The notes: a model not told the origin generated them from the sequence alone. A DNA stretch of 64,000 nt from an uncultured bacterium (GCA_938074205.1 CALJES010000004.1:124001-188000), one strand, 5' to 3'; positions 3,947-8,550 are shown, numbered from the stretch's first letter. A program made the numbers and translations.

Positions 3947-4675
3947 CTACGCGCGTCTGCGCCGCATTCCTACAAGAGCGATCAGGCCTGTGCCAAGTGC
4001 TACCAAGCTTGTCGGCTCGGGAACGATTTCTACCTTGATGTCATCGTACCAAGCACCGGCATTGTTGTTCGTCAGGCCCGAACCCACTCTGATTCGGGTA
4101 ATGCCGTACACTGCCGTAGTGGTCGCAGTCGCTCCCAGTTGGTCGTCAATCCAGAATTTGATAGTCCCGTCTAGGAACTGCTCAACCTTCATGGAGTGCC
4201 ACACGTTGGCGACGCGGGCAATGGTGGTATTACCCCAGTTAACACTTCCAATTGCAACTCGGAAGTTGTACTTGGTGGTGTCGGCTGGAGGTGCATTGTA
4301 CACTCCCAGGCTTATTAACTGCTGGAGCGATCCGCTGCCGCCACCGCCGCTGTAGCTGTGGATCTGCAGATATTCGCGTGTGGTCGCTGACTTGTGCATA
4401 AAGTTCCAGCTCACCACCCACAGCTTCGGGCTCTCAGTCGCCCAGTTGTAGTCCTTGGCGTTTGTGTAGTTTGTGGTTGCGTTGTCCGCAGTCTTGAGCG
4501 ACCACTGACCGCCGGGAGTGGTATTCTGGGTGTTGTCCAGAGTCGCGAACGGACCCGAACCGTAGTCCACCCAGCCGTCGGTTCCGGTCTCCCAGTCCTC
4601 AAAAAGAATAACCTGGGCACCGGCAGGGGCTAATGCTACGGCCATTACGGCGAGCAAAGCCAAAATCATTCTCAT
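3947..4675 (-). CDS. PEP-CTERM sorting-domain protein, secreted
   Basis: 242 residues. An N-terminal signal peptide (cleavage likely after APAGA, residue about 20) and a C-terminal VPEP motif followed by a hydrophobic helix and RRRRA define a PEP-CTERM protein, a class handled by an exosortase (none is in this window). The middle part (FEDWETGTDGW ... WHSMKVEQFLDGTIKFWIDD ... AWYDDIKVEIVPEP) resembles a concanavalin/LamG-like jelly roll seen in surface proteins of this kind. Strong ribosome site AAAGGAGGG at 4682-4690. It has its own promoter with a shared upstream element and a structured leader, and its own terminator. Specific ligand unknown. Confidence 0.85.
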   Translation of the reverse strand: MRMILALLAVMAVALAPAGAQVILFEDWETGTDGWVDYGSGPFATLDNTQNTTPGGQWSLKTADNATTNYTNAKDYNWATESPKLWVVSWNFMHKSATTREYLQIHSYSGGGGSGSLQQLISLGVYNAPPADTTKYNFRVAIGSVNWGNTTIARVANVWHSMKVEQFLDGTIKFWIDDQLGATATTTAVYGITRIRVGSGLTNNNAGAWYDDIKVEIVPEPTSLVALGTGLIALVGMRRRRA

Positions 4676-4808: not shown

Positions 4809-4861
4809 ATATTATCCTCAAGGGACGGCTTAGTCAAGTGAGTGGCGGAAAATCAGGTATT
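4809..4861 (-). promoter_or_regulatory. PEP-CTERM gene promoter with shared upstream element (copy 1)
   Basis: On the minus strand: AATACCTGATTTT (4861-4849), 11 bp gap, TTGACT (4837-4832), 17 bp spacer, TAATAT (4814-4809). The same element, gap and spacer recur before the PEP-CTERM gene at 58671-60032. This looks like a sigma-70 promoter with an activator or UP-type site centred near -60; the bound protein is unknown. Confidence 0.6.
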
Positions 4862-4904
4862 TTTACCAGCGCTGTACAGCTTCCTCACGTATGAGCCACG
4901 CATC

Positions 4905-4917
4905 AATACCTGTTTTC
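4905..4917 (+). promoter_or_regulatory. Third copy of the AATACCTGWTTT element
   Basis: AATACCTGTTTTC on the plus strand, 99 bp before the phosphodiester glycosidase start codon. Unlike the other two copies, no TTGAC-type -35 box lies 11 bp downstream, so its role is uncertain; it could act on either divergent gene. Confidence 0.35.
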
Positions 4918-5015
4918 GATTCAAACCGGCAATTATACCGGCGAACAAAAGCCCGGAAGGCATCACTTATGCAGATATCATCAGTGTAGTGTGTAGTCGG
5001 AGGAGGGGCGCCACT

Positions 5016-5813
5016 ATGATAAGGGCAGCTGTTCTGGCTATGTCTGTTCTCTTCGGATGCAGCGGTGCATATTCCTCGCAGACGTCCAGCATAGCATACC
5101 AGCGAATCCGACACGAGCATCTTGTTGCGCACGTCGTAACCGTCAATCTGCAGGATCCGGATGTCAAAGTGTCCGTGGCGTTGGCCTCTGGCGGAACTGG
5201 AAATGCTGAGACCTTCAAGTCTATAGTGAGCCGCACACGTCCCTATCTGGCGATCACCGGCACATTCTTTGACACAAAGAGCTTGAAACCCACGGGCGAT
5301 ATCGCACTGTTCGGCACGCTTGTTTATTCAGGTGTCATTGGCTCAGCGCTTACAGTAGACCAAAACAACAACGCGCGTATAATACCTCTCGAAACCGGTC
5401 GTCAGAACGGGTGGCAAGGCTGCGAAACAGTCCTGTGTGCCGGTCCAACTTTGGTTGCAAATGGCAAGGTCGCGATCGCGCTTAAACACGAGGGCTTTCG
5501 GTCAACGCTGCTGTCCTCGACGAGGCGCACCGGCGTGGGCATAACCGAAAACGGCAAGCTACTGCTAGTTTGCGTCAACCGCCGAGCCTCGCTTTATGAT
5601 CTGGCAAAGCTCTTCATTCACCTCAAAGCCAGGGATGCCGTGCTTTTAGATGGGGGGTCATCAACGGCTCTGTATTACAATGGACGATATCTTGCGATGC
5701 CGGGTCGGACACTTACTAACTGTTTGGTTGTGTATTCGAGCCTCAGCGATTACAATGCCGCGAAGAACCTTCTTGCTCCCCCGGATATGTTGGCAAAAGC
5801 GCAGACACGCTGA
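5016..5813 (+). CDS. Secreted phosphodiester glycosidase-domain (NAGPA) protein
   Basis: 265 residues from the ATG at 5016, chosen because CGGAGGAGGGG (4999-5009) precedes it and a signal peptide follows (residues 1-20, possibly a lipoprotein: LFGCSGAYS). The body matches the phosphodiester glycosidase domain (PF09992): AITGTFFDTKSLKPTGD, then TGVGITENGKLLLVCV and the conserved AVLLDGGSSTALYYNG near the end. Homologues include the human uncovering enzyme and bacterial exopolysaccharide or sporulation proteins; a role in trimming a surface glycan is plausible. Divergent from the PEP-CTERM gene and sharing its upstream region. Confidence 0.85.
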   Translation: MIRAAVLAMSVLFGCSGAYSSQTSSIAYQRIRHEHLVAHVVTVNLQDPDVKVSVALASGGTGNAETFKSIVSRTRPYLAITGTFFDTKSLKPTGDIALFGTLVYSGVIGSALTVDQNNNARIIPLETGRQNGWQGCETVLCAGPTLVANGKVAIALKHEGFRSTLLSSTRRTGVGITENGKLLLVCVNRRASLYDLAKLFIHLKARDAVLLDGGSSTALYYNGRYLAMPGRTLTNCLVVYSSLSDYNAAKNLLAPPDMLAKAQTR

Positions 5814-5845: not shown

Positions 5846-5874
5846 TTGACATCGTAGTTTCCTGCTGATACACT
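5846..5874 (+). promoter_or_regulatory. Promoter of the cobalamin-riboswitch operon
   Basis: TTGACA (5846-5851), 17 bp, TACACT (5869-5874). Transcription would begin near 5881, about 20 nt before the riboswitch P1 stem. Confidence 0.6.
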
Positions 5875-5898
5875 GTAACAAAACTGAATACTGTTCGC

Positions 5899-6048
5899 TT
5901 GTAGGGCTCTAGGGAAGACGGTGAAAGTCCGTCACGGGCCCGCCGCTGTAACCGGGGACGAACCGGCCGTATCCACTGTCCGTAGGTAGCAACGGATGGG
6001 AAGGGGTCGGGGTAGGATGATCCGGAAGTCAGAAGACCTGCCCTACGA
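5899..6048 (+). promoter_or_regulatory. Cobalamin (B12) riboswitch
   Basis: The sequence carries the conserved B12-box and core elements: GGTGAAAGTCC (5920-5930), GGGCCCGCCGCTGTAACCGG (5936-5954) and GGAAGTCAGAAGACCTGCC (6023-6042). GTAGGG (5901-5906) pairs with CCCTAC (6041-6046) to close P1. This matches the adenosyl/hydroxocobalamin class (Rfam Cobalamin family). It ends about 30 nt before the pseudopilin start codon at 6080, so control of ribosome access at GGAGG (6070-6074) is likely. Such switches normally repress B12 uptake or synthesis genes when the cofactor is plentiful; none of the usual btu or cob genes follows here. Confidence 0.93.
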
Positions 6049-6079
6049 GCTTTCGAACGGTTCATCTTCGGAGGCAAAG

Positions 6080-6835
6080 ATGACGGTCGAGCAGCGCAGT
6101 GCAAGTCGGGCTCTTGGCCAAAGTTGTATCCGGGATGGGCTAAGAGCCCGTTTCGGTTTTAGTCTAGTCGAGCTCCTCGTGGTTGTTGCCATCATCGCCG
6201 CAATCGTCGCGGTGATGGTTCCTATTGTAACGGCAGCGAAGGAAGGTGCTCGCCAAACCAAGTGCGCTTCTAATCTGAAGCAGCTTATCTCAGCGTGGGC
6301 CCTTTACGCCGATGACAACTCAGGCCGCGCCTGCCCATCCTACTACTTTGACTGGAACACGAATACTGAGTACGCCTGGGATTTCGTGCTGCGCTGGTCG
6401 TCGTTTCCGCCGGATTACAAGTTTGGGCTCCTCGCGCGCTACACAAAAAACCATCAGATAAATAACTGCCCCTCTTTTGTCGGTAACGGGTGGGGAAGAC
6501 CGTATACGGGATATGCCTACAACGCGACGTACATTGGAGGCGATCCAGCAATGGGCATAAGCCCGTGCGCCGTTGGGCAAATAGCCCAACCCTCGCGAAA
6601 GGTTGTGTTCGCAGACGGAGGGTTCGGTAACCCTGTGAACGCTCAGAACTTCCTGCGTGCACCCAGCGATCCACTGTTTTCGGCAGGAAAGATTCACTTC
6701 AGACACAACGGCTTCGCCAACGCCGCTTATGCAGACGGTCATGTGGCACGGTCAAACAAGAAATTCAAATACGACCCCAAAGAACCTGAGTGTGGTGCTC
6801 TATCTGAGGACGACTCTGCCTATTGCCTGAGGTGA
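6080..6835 (+). CDS. H-X9-DG-type pseudopilin under cobalamin riboswitch control
   Basis: 251 residues from the ATG at 6080; GGAGG ends 5 bp upstream. An upstream ATG at 5996 lies inside the riboswitch and is rejected. Residues about 23-48 form a type IV prepilin signal (RARFG then [19 protein letters not shown], with Glu at position 5 after the cleaved Gly), so it is processed by a prepilin peptidase. The C-terminal region has [15 protein letters not shown], the H-X9-DG signature of the large pseudopilin family common in Planctomycetes and Armatimonadota (DUF1559-like). First gene of a three-gene operon, with the next start 5 bp past its stop. Riboswitch control suggests a part in corrinoid capture or uptake; that is inference. 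Confidence 0.88.
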
Positions 6836-6840
6836 TTCAC

Positions 6841-7902
6841 GTGATATTGGAAACGCAAACGAGCAGAAAGCGAAGGATTACCGCAGTCATAGTCATGTGC
6901 GCGCTGTCTGTTATAGTTTCATCATCTGGGGCAGCTGACTTTGCGGTGAGGGTGATCAGCTACTCCAATCTAGGCCAGGGCATATATGGCGTTCCTGAAT
7001 CGGTGCTCGGCGCGCCGACCAAATGGATTAAAGAACCCGGCGGGCCTGGCGTACCGAGCGGAACCTACGCTTGCTCTATGGTTTACGGCGCCTGGAATAC
7101 TGATCCTGAGGGTTCCCCGTTGATAGTCACCGTCGGAAACTTGAGCACTCCCGGGCAAATAACTGTGGAGTTCGACCCGCCAATATATGACGATCCCGCC
7201 AATTGGTACGGTCTCGATTTCATCGTCTTTGGGAATTCTGCCTTTATTGGTACGGGTTACGTCAGATACGACACGGATATGACTACCTATCGCATCAACA
7301 ATAACGCTTCCATCACCGGTGAGAGCGTAATTGTCGCTGTCAGCCCGGACGGTACGAACTGGTACGAATATCCAACTCCGATCGCCGACAATTATTGGCC
7401 TACAAACGCTTTTGCTTGGGACAGCCAGGCACGCACTTGGGATGGACAGCTTGATCCCACCAAGCCCGTCGATCCAGCGCTCAACCCGAGTGATTTTGCC
7501 GGCATATATGTGGCGGATGCGATAGGGCTTTATAAGGGTTCCGCAGGTGGCACTGCGTATGACCTGGCACAGTCCGGGTTTTCGTTGGTGCGATACATAC
7601 GACTTTCAAGCAAGGGAGGTGAAGTCGATGCATTGGCACGGGTGAGAAAACCATTTACAATCGGTGAAGCAAAGTGTCTGCCCGATGGTGCCGTGGTGTC
7701 TCTTGGACCCAACTATGTTACTGCGGGAGCTGCCGAATTTGCCGATTGCTGTTACATCCAGTCAACCGACCGAACGTCGGCGATCAAGGTAACCGGCAGA
7801 ACTGCCGAGGCTGGGTCCGTCGTGCTTGTCACAGGCACCATCGATACAGAAGCAGGTGAACGCGTGATTCGAGCATCTTGGCTTGGAGTTCAGCAGAGGT
7901 AG
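6841..7902 (+). CDS. Secreted surface protein with OB-like C-terminal domain, B12-riboswitch operon
   Basis: 353 residues. Start chosen at GTG 6841, with TGAGG 8 bp upstream and 5 bp after the previous stop. Signal peptide about residues 11-30. The main domain (residues 35-260) contains ITVEFDPPIYDDPANWYGLDFIVFGNSAF and VIVAVSPDGTNWYEY and ends FSLVRYIRLSSKGGEVDAL. From memory this layout resembles Bacteroidetes surface proteins encoded in cobalamin-uptake loci; a profile search is needed to confirm. Residues about 268-353 (KCLPDGAVVSLGPNYVTAG ... SVVLVTGTIDTEAGERVI) look like an OB-fold domain appended to many secreted proteins of this lineage. Probably cell-surface or periplasmic, possibly corrinoid-binding. 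Confidence 0.75.
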   Translation: MILETQTSRKRRITAVIVMCALSVIVSSSGAADFAVRVISYSNLGQGIYGVPESVLGAPTKWIKEPGGPGVPSGTYACSMVYGAWNTDPEGSPLIVTVGNLSTPGQITVEFDPPIYDDPANWYGLDFIVFGNSAFIGTGYVRYDTDMTTYRINNNASITGESVIVAVSPDGTNWYEYPTPIADNYWPTNAFAWDSQARTWDGQLDPTKPVDPALNPSDFAGIYVADAIGLYKGSAGGTAYDLAQSGFSLVRYIRLSSKGGEVDALARVRKPFTIGEAKCLPDGAVVSLGPNYVTAGAAEFADCCYIQSTDRTSAIKVTGRTAEAGSVVLVTGTIDTEAGERVIRASWLGVQQR

Positions 7903-7926
7903 AAAAATAGAGAGGAGGCAAGTACA

Positions 7927-8496
7927 TTGAAACTGCTTACGATTAAAATTCTGACACCCATTGTCTTGTTACTCTTCGCTCCGATTGCCCAGGCTCTGAC
8001 TTTCGATCAGGTTCTGGTCGAGAACTGGGTTGGACTCGGCAACAGCACTGCGATGCTAGTGGTCGATTTTGGGCCCAAGTCGTTTGCTTTCGGCTATCGT
8101 TTCGACATCGACAACCAGCCAACCGGCTGGGACATGTTAAGTGCAGTTGCTGATGCGACCGATCTGGACATCACGGTAGATATGAGCTGGGGTAGTCCTT
8201 TCATCACAGGTATCAGTTACCAGGGCTACTCCGGTTACTACGACTCGCAAAACTGGCAGACAAGCTCTTGGTGGGAGTACTGGACGAGCACCGACGGTGA
8301 AACTTGGGAGTCATCTTTGTTAGGTGCTGGATATCGTACTCTCGGTGATGGTGCTTGGGACGGTTGGACTTTCTCTCCTCCTTGGCCGGCACAAGGAACG
8401 CCGCCAGTGGTACCGCTCGTGCCCGAACCTTCAACCATTGGCGGCGTGTTCCCCATAATCGGCCTTGCGGTCATTCGGCTCCTCCGCCGCAAGTAA
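7927..8496 (+). CDS. PEP-CTERM protein, third gene of the B12-riboswitch operon
   Basis: 189 residues from a TTG start with GAGGAGG 8 bp upstream. Signal peptide at residues 1-23 (IVLLLFAPIAQA). The central part is rich in Trp, Tyr and Gly (DSQNWQTSSWWEYWTSTDGE) and ends VPEPSTIGG, a hydrophobic helix and RLLRRK, a PEP-CTERM sorting signal. The N-terminal stretch (QVLVENWVGLGNSTAMLVVDFG ... FGYRFD) occurs in other PEP-CTERM proteins, to my recollection. It lies 24 bp after the surface protein and is followed by a strong terminator, so the riboswitch very likely governs it too. Function unknown. Confidence 0.85.
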   Translation: MKLLTIKILTPIVLLLFAPIAQALTFDQVLVENWVGLGNSTAMLVVDFGPKSFAFGYRFDIDNQPTGWDMLSAVADATDLDITVDMSWGSPFITGISYQGYSGYYDSQNWQTSSWWEYWTSTDGETWESSLLGAGYRTLGDGAWDGWTFSPPWPAQGTPPVVPLVPEPSTIGGVFPIIGLAVIRLLRRK

Positions 8497-8505
8497 CCGA
8501 CCACC

Positions 8506-8550
8506 GCGGGGCTCGTTTATTACCCGCTCGCGAGCCCCGCAACTCTTATT
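8506..8550 (+). terminator. Terminator of the cobalamin-riboswitch operon
   Basis: A 10-bp GC-rich stem, GCGGGGCTCG (8506-8515) with CGAGCCCCGC (8531-8540), is followed by AACTCTTATT. It lies 10 bp past the last stop codon. The T-tract is imperfect. Confidence 0.6.

Follow-up and report, generated by a model that had tools for sequence, protein, structure and literature searches.

A cobalamin riboswitch-linked prepilin cassette from an uncultured bacterium as a candidate corrinoid-capture system in place of BtuB

Cobalamin (vitamin B12) is too large for ordinary porins, and the question addressed here is how it is supplied to diderms without BtuB or any TonB-dependent receptor. The closest described systems are the BtuB-TonB route of Escherichia coli and Bacteroides and the Bacteroides lipoproteins BtuH, BtuG, and BtuJ, which are riboswitch-controlled, B12-capturing surface proteins (PMC8941943, PMC10404256, PMC12751083). 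A cassette resembling the latter was identified in a 64,000-nucleotide stretch of DNA from an uncultured bacterium (GCA_938074205.1, CALJES010000004.1:124001-188000; the window), in which a cobalamin riboswitch heads a three-gene operon encoding a prepilin, a two-domain secreted protein (protein 2), and a PEP-CTERM protein. It differs from the Bacteroides lipoprotein systems in lacking BtuB and carrying a prepilin instead, in PEP-CTERM sorting rather than a lipoprotein anchor, and in its occurrence outside the Bacteroidota. The same riboswitch-linked slot is filled by BtuB-type receptors in 8 of 61 genomes of the window's phylum, whereas the cassette includes no TonB-dependent barrel and 19 of its carriers have none genome-wide. 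Cobalamin riboswitches and BtuH/BtuG capture proteins are already known; the comparative data suggest an undescribed bacterial route of B12 uptake, and the locus is probably a cobalamin-repressed corrinoid-capture system with a dedicated pilin replacing BtuB, for which direct B12 binding, surface location, and retraction-driven transfer are inferred.

The riboswitch aptamer (5887..6059, plus strand) matched the complete RF00174 covariance model (positions 1-189) with 102.9 bits and an E-value of 1.2e-24, compared to a gathering score of 31.5 bits, and was the sole RF00174 match across the 3.02-Mb window genome. Both the riboswitch proposed in the earlier note and its retention ahead of homologous operons in relatives were borne out, the latter by a survey of the phylum, covering 61 genomes from 27 families, in which each of 78 cobalamin riboswitch sites was read approximately 8-15 kb downstream as far as contigs allowed. 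A related H-X9-DG prepilin lay at most 2.6 kb behind the riboswitch at 51 of the 78 sites and in 47 of the 61 genomes; of the remaining sites, 8 preceded a BtuB-type receptor, another 8 preceded BtuF or BtuC alone, and 11 preceded other genes or contig ends. The phylum is probably the Armatimonadota, since a matching riboswitch-prepilin locus (L188) came from a named Armatimonadetes genome.

Transport genes were also found in these loci, with BtuF after the prepilin in eight pilin loci and BtuC and/or BtuD in several, including BtuD after BtuF in G040, G046, and G053 and the addition of CobA in G004. The earlier note had stressed that the operon holds no transporter or synthesis enzyme, which is correct for the window locus and not for its relatives, where BtuF, BtuC, BtuD, and CobA occur behind the same riboswitch-prepilin pair. 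In G034, G036, G040, G045, G046, G053, and G058 the prepilin was directly followed by BtuF with no gene for a BtuH-type protein or for either of its cassette partners, the GYR protein and the propeller described below. No homologue of the BtuH-type domain was found in genomes outside the class using the window protein as query, and the pilin therefore appears to adjoin BtuF without BtuH in those loci. This argues that the pilin rather than BtuH is the core of the cassette, as BtuB is in Bacteroides.

The distribution of the prepilin subfamily, defined by at least 210 bits to profile A1, also alternated with that of BtuB. The subfamily was absent from 10 of the 61 genomes, seven of which were riboswitch-BtuB genomes, such that seven of the eight genomes with a riboswitch-driven BtuB lacked it (Fisher p=2e-6). 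Families f5, f6, f9, and f19 each contained both the BtuB and the pilin states, indicating that the swap occurred more than once. No PF00593 protein was present in 20 of the 61 genomes, and the prepilin subfamily was found in 19 of those 20. The corrin-ring synthesis gene CbiC was detected in 0 of 61 genomes and was present in seven control genomes, and PilT occurred in all 61. The window genome encoded a single PF00593 protein, whose gene neighbours a putative glycosidase on a different contig and has no riboswitch, and no TonB-dependent receptor was found in its riboswitch regulon; it further contained one strong BtuC-type permease, five PF02310 (B12-binding) matches, and two exosortases. 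The B12 link of the cassette is strong, and the comparative evidence supports a role of the pilin in B12 acquisition far more strongly than is visible from the window alone.

The window prepilin (6080..6835, plus strand; 251 aa) carried an FGF-SLVELL cleavage motif with an N-terminal TIGR02532 match of 20.7 bits (cut-off 16.3), a literal H-X9-DG motif, and a C-terminal tail beyond that motif that is conserved in the B12-linked subfamily. The TIGR04294 model scored 13.0 bits, below the curated cut-off of 19, and was matched by 30 of 38 relatives at E-values of at most 0.1. The predicted structure was a type IV pilin fold with a predicted local distance difference test (pLDDT) score of 92.9, and matches to GspG of the type II secretion system (T2SS) and other pseudopilin models were also found. 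Tails ending in DDSAY accompanied GYR partners in every complete locus of that type and tails with FGP.DN or alike accompanied propeller partners in eight of nine. Pilin and BtuH distances correlated with r=0.90 (20 loci), and the two cassettes inside G008 differed in step, so that co-inheritance of pilin and partner is not explained by species history alone. A third tail type, LGDIDxDGDxxTDELFD, resembles an EF-hand-type calcium loop (DxDxDGxxxxxE) and occurs in prepilins with and without a riboswitch (L117, L118, L128, L131, L134, L315, L316, L319, and L320). Scanning of genome contigs for the pilin was swamped by the conserved N-terminus, and absences from that scan carry little weight.

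Protein 2 (6841..7902, plus strand) consists of a BtuH-type N-terminal domain (aligned 6892-7644) and a C-terminal domain (about 7648-7899). Searched alone with phmmer, it had no match in the PDB, and a profile was required. Profile A6, built from the BtuH-type domains of propeller-type cassettes, matched the H-domain of BtuG1 (8blw_B, 1.7e-12) and BtuH2 (7biz_A, 1.6e-8) as its only credible PDB chains, with a third match at E 0.5, and the wider profile A2, which includes the window sequence, matched the same structures at 3e-5 and 2.2e-4, respectively, amid chance antibody matches. When divergent members were omitted (profile A5), the BtuH matches were lost and the search returned antibody light chains alone, which were regarded as chance matches. 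An AlphaFold2 model of the N-terminal domain made without templates (pLDDT 82.9) ranked 8blw_B first (Z 12.4, root-mean-square deviation 3.2, 143 aligned residues) and 7biz_A second (Z 12.2, 3.5, 137 aligned) in VIA-align at 20-23% identity, followed by the unrelated PAPP-A and CBM32 modules with Z of at most 10.4. Foldseek alone placed CBM32 and other F5/8-type modules first with weak E-values and the BtuH domains not on top; a carbohydrate-binding (CBM32-like) reading was dropped because VIA-align placed the BtuH domains at the top, the sequence profile agreed, and the locus is B12-linked. Profile and structural model together confirmed the predicted homology of this domain with the domain through which BtuH2/BtuG1 of Bacteroides bind B12.

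The affinity of BtuH2 for cyanocobalamin is picomolar, and its contacts with the ligand include Asn399 and Gln333 (PMC8941943). In the profile alignment, the phosphate-contacting Asn399 corresponded to the Asn of the FGN motif (Asn132 of protein 2, 7234-7236), which was invariant in 19 of 19 sequences. The contacts compared were Gln333, Asn399, His476, Tyr510, Trp511, and Trp577; Gln333 was mostly kept in propeller-type loci, Trp577 was not kept, and the positions of His476, Tyr510, and Trp511 could not be aligned reliably. The C-terminal domain is common in unrelated secreted proteins of the class and has no B12 link of its own; as many as approximately 20 matches occurred in a single genome, apparently unrelated to B12. 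A tblastn search of a plasmid collection with protein 2 gave no match.

The third cassette slot is occupied by a GYR-type PEP-CTERM protein in the window (7927..8496, plus strand; G-x-G ... FGYRFD ... VPEP) and by a PEP-CTERM beta-propeller in sister cassettes. The GYR protein ends in VPEPST...LLRRK, with VPEP invariant in 14 relatives, and the PEP-CTERM model scored 14.4 bits in the window copy, just under the curated cut-off of 16; the protein had no PDB match and no informative Pfam match. The propeller family PF16819 adjoins B12 transport genes (PMC13398666) and was weakly matched by one of seven cassette propellers. In nine Verrucomicrobiota loci, GYR and BtuH domains were joined in a single reading frame, which ties GYR to the same function. 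Of the protein descriptions in the earlier note, the likeness to Bacteroidetes B12 surface proteins proved right for protein 2 in its N-terminal domain. For the H-X9-DG prepilin and PEP-CTERM assignments, both curated models fell below cut-off in the window copies, although each copy carries the motif and relatives conserve it.

Complete cassettes were present in other phyla, in the order riboswitch, GYR, BtuH-type, and prepilin in a Phycisphaerae genome and riboswitch, propeller, BtuH-type, and prepilin in a Chthoniobacteraceae genome, and no PF00593 protein was found in either of these genomes. The BtuH-type domain occurred in 45 of 289 Verrucomicrobiota genomes. Among 30 of their BtuH loci that were read, a same-strand prepilin was present in 21 and a riboswitch lay at most 1.5 kb away in 15, and three Verrucomicrobiota BtuH loci had a BtuB-type receptor instead, the prepilin being absent there.

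Two further groups of described systems share features with the cassette. The H-X9-DG/DUF1559 prepilins of Planctomycetota, Verrucomicrobiota, and Armatimonadota have the same N-terminus, H-X9-DG motif, and type IV pilin fold, whereas the window subfamily is distinguished by its tie to cobalamin riboswitches and its conserved tail. DUF4465 B12 binders are likewise secreted jelly-roll proteins near riboswitches (PMC13398666); Pfam searches assigned DUF4465 to none of the prepilin, BtuH-type, and GYR proteins. Pili-like fibres of Planctomycetes that bind dextran offer a precedent for bringing external molecules into the periplasm by a fibre-associated route, in which a role of crateriform structures and fibres is the authors' speculation (PMC5394234); in the portions of that report used here, uptake is shown for dextran, with no link to B12 and no pilin identified. 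The literature searched contained no earlier description of a pilin-B12 link or of a riboswitch-controlled prepilin in BtuB's place.

In the proposed mechanism, low cellular B12 would cause the riboswitch to permit translation from the prepilin start codon and readthrough of the operon. The BtuH-type protein would capture corrinoid extracellularly and an exosortase would sort the PEP-CTERM partner at the surface. The dedicated type IV (pseudo)pilin would take the role of BtuB in passing corrinoid over the outer-membrane barrier, probably by attaching to the corrinoid or to the proteins that carry it and shuttling these through type IV pilus or type II-like machinery. As a pilin is not a channel, the crossing needs other machinery, and import across the inner membrane would use a BtuFCD-type ATP-binding cassette transporter encoded elsewhere in the window genome. 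The pilus-like or surface-tethered scavenging of corrinoid raised in the earlier note is a mechanistic hypothesis. In its most specific form, put forward tentatively and at somewhat less than even likelihood, the pilin alone or with BtuH/BtuG-like proteins may bind corrinoid and retract through a secretin to BtuF, giving TonB-independent import in the window phylum, Verrucomicrobiota, and Planctomycetota.

Several observations weigh against replacement of BtuB by a corrinoid-handling pilin. The prepilin model matched type IV pilins only and contained no known B12-binding fold, and the BtuH2 contacts besides Asn399 and, in part, Gln333 were not clearly conserved in the BtuH-type domain. The prepilin tree parted linked from unlinked copies only incompletely, and subfamily copies without a detectable riboswitch or BtuH neighbour were found in G037, G039, G054, G055, and G060. 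Profile A1 was built from linked prepilins, making their high scores partly circular, although not the low scores of BtuB genomes. Finally, G045 alone among the sampled genomes had both riboswitch-BtuB and riboswitch-prepilin loci (L127 and L128), G017 and G043 had neither BtuB nor the pilin, and G025 was incomplete.

The main rival explanation, which appears rather unlikely, assigns the prepilin a helper role in export or assembly: as a pseudopilin of a type II-like secretion machine, it would deliver the BtuH-type and PEP-CTERM proteins to the cell surface, while corrinoid would cross the outer membrane by another route such as a porin or other barrel. The matches to GspG and other pseudopilin models are consistent with such a role, as is the correspondence between pilin tail and partner type, which would be expected of an exporter fitted to its cargo. 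However, the loci with the pilin directly before BtuF, which occur in much of the phylum, offer no adjoining cargo, and it is BtuB rather than BtuH with which the pilin alternates; the pilin-only loci thus count against an export helper. A behavioural response to low B12, in which a dedicated pilus attaches to or aggregates with B12-producing neighbours and the BtuH-type domain senses or stores B12, is improbable. Attachment is a common pilin function and PilT occurs throughout the survey, but BtuF, BtuC, BtuD, and CobA adjoining the cassette in relatives, the alternation with BtuB, and the 19 carriers without any TonB-dependent receptor and also without CbiC all indicate uptake. A chance or misannotated riboswitch neighbourhood with common surface genes can practically be dismissed, as H-X9-DG prepilins are numerous (approximately 43 scored in the window genome) but these counts give an estimate of about 1-4% for finding one next to a riboswitch at random, compared to the 51 of 78 sites observed, and the cassette was found in three phyla.

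Control of the operon likely involves B12-dependent masking of the prepilin start site, as judged from an expression-platform hairpin immediately 3' of the aptamer (TCATCTT-CGGAGGCA-AAGATGA; 6062..6083, plus strand) with the Shine-Dalgarno sequence in its loop and the prepilin AUG (6080) in its stem. Twenty loci of the class share this hairpin, in most cases 0-5 nt past the aptamer, with A-T, T-A, and C-G variants of the outermost pair across loci and a broken pair in some, and its folding energy by itself was not significant. Premature termination possibly acts as an additional control via a terminator-like hairpin within the prepilin leader (6130..6156, plus strand; 12 bp followed by TTTTAG), for which a competing pairing of 6108-6115 with 6142-6149 is possible; in approximately half of the pilin loci, a terminator-like hairpin lay no more than 150 nt from the riboswitch. 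A promoter-like site with TG ahead of the second hexamer (TTGACA-17-TACACT; 5846..5874, plus strand) precedes the aptamer, and promoter-like sites of the region overall showed no excess over shuffled sequences in the consensus scan. The operon is closed by a GC-rich inverted repeat (GCGGGGCTCG ... CGAGCCCCGC; 8506..8540, plus strand), beyond which the genes are convergent, and its upstream neighbours encode an NAGPA-type phosphodiester glycosidase (4842-5813, plus strand) and another PEP-CTERM protein (3947-4675, minus strand). Among the surveyed loci, a BtuC-like gene behind the cassette of L064 (G004:C4) was apparently broken by one internal stop, with an intact permease on another contig. 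A PdxA-like gene (ITLGDPAGxGPEIV) lay downstream of the B12 cassette in L065, L070, L075, and L079, and the riboswitches of L067 and L076 (G006 and G012) had no recognised same-strand gene nearby, with opposite-strand genes overlapping or following.

The cassette offers a specific answer to B12 supply for genomes in which CbiC is absent but cobalamin riboswitches are still intact. It extends BtuH/BtuG-type capture proteins past the Bacteroidota and connects the large, unexplained H-X9-DG prepilin families with nutrient uptake. Movement of corrinoid across the outer membrane by a pilin would, if true, be categorically new, and if pilins can stand in for a TonB-dependent receptor in B12 uptake, further members of these expanded families may serve other solutes.

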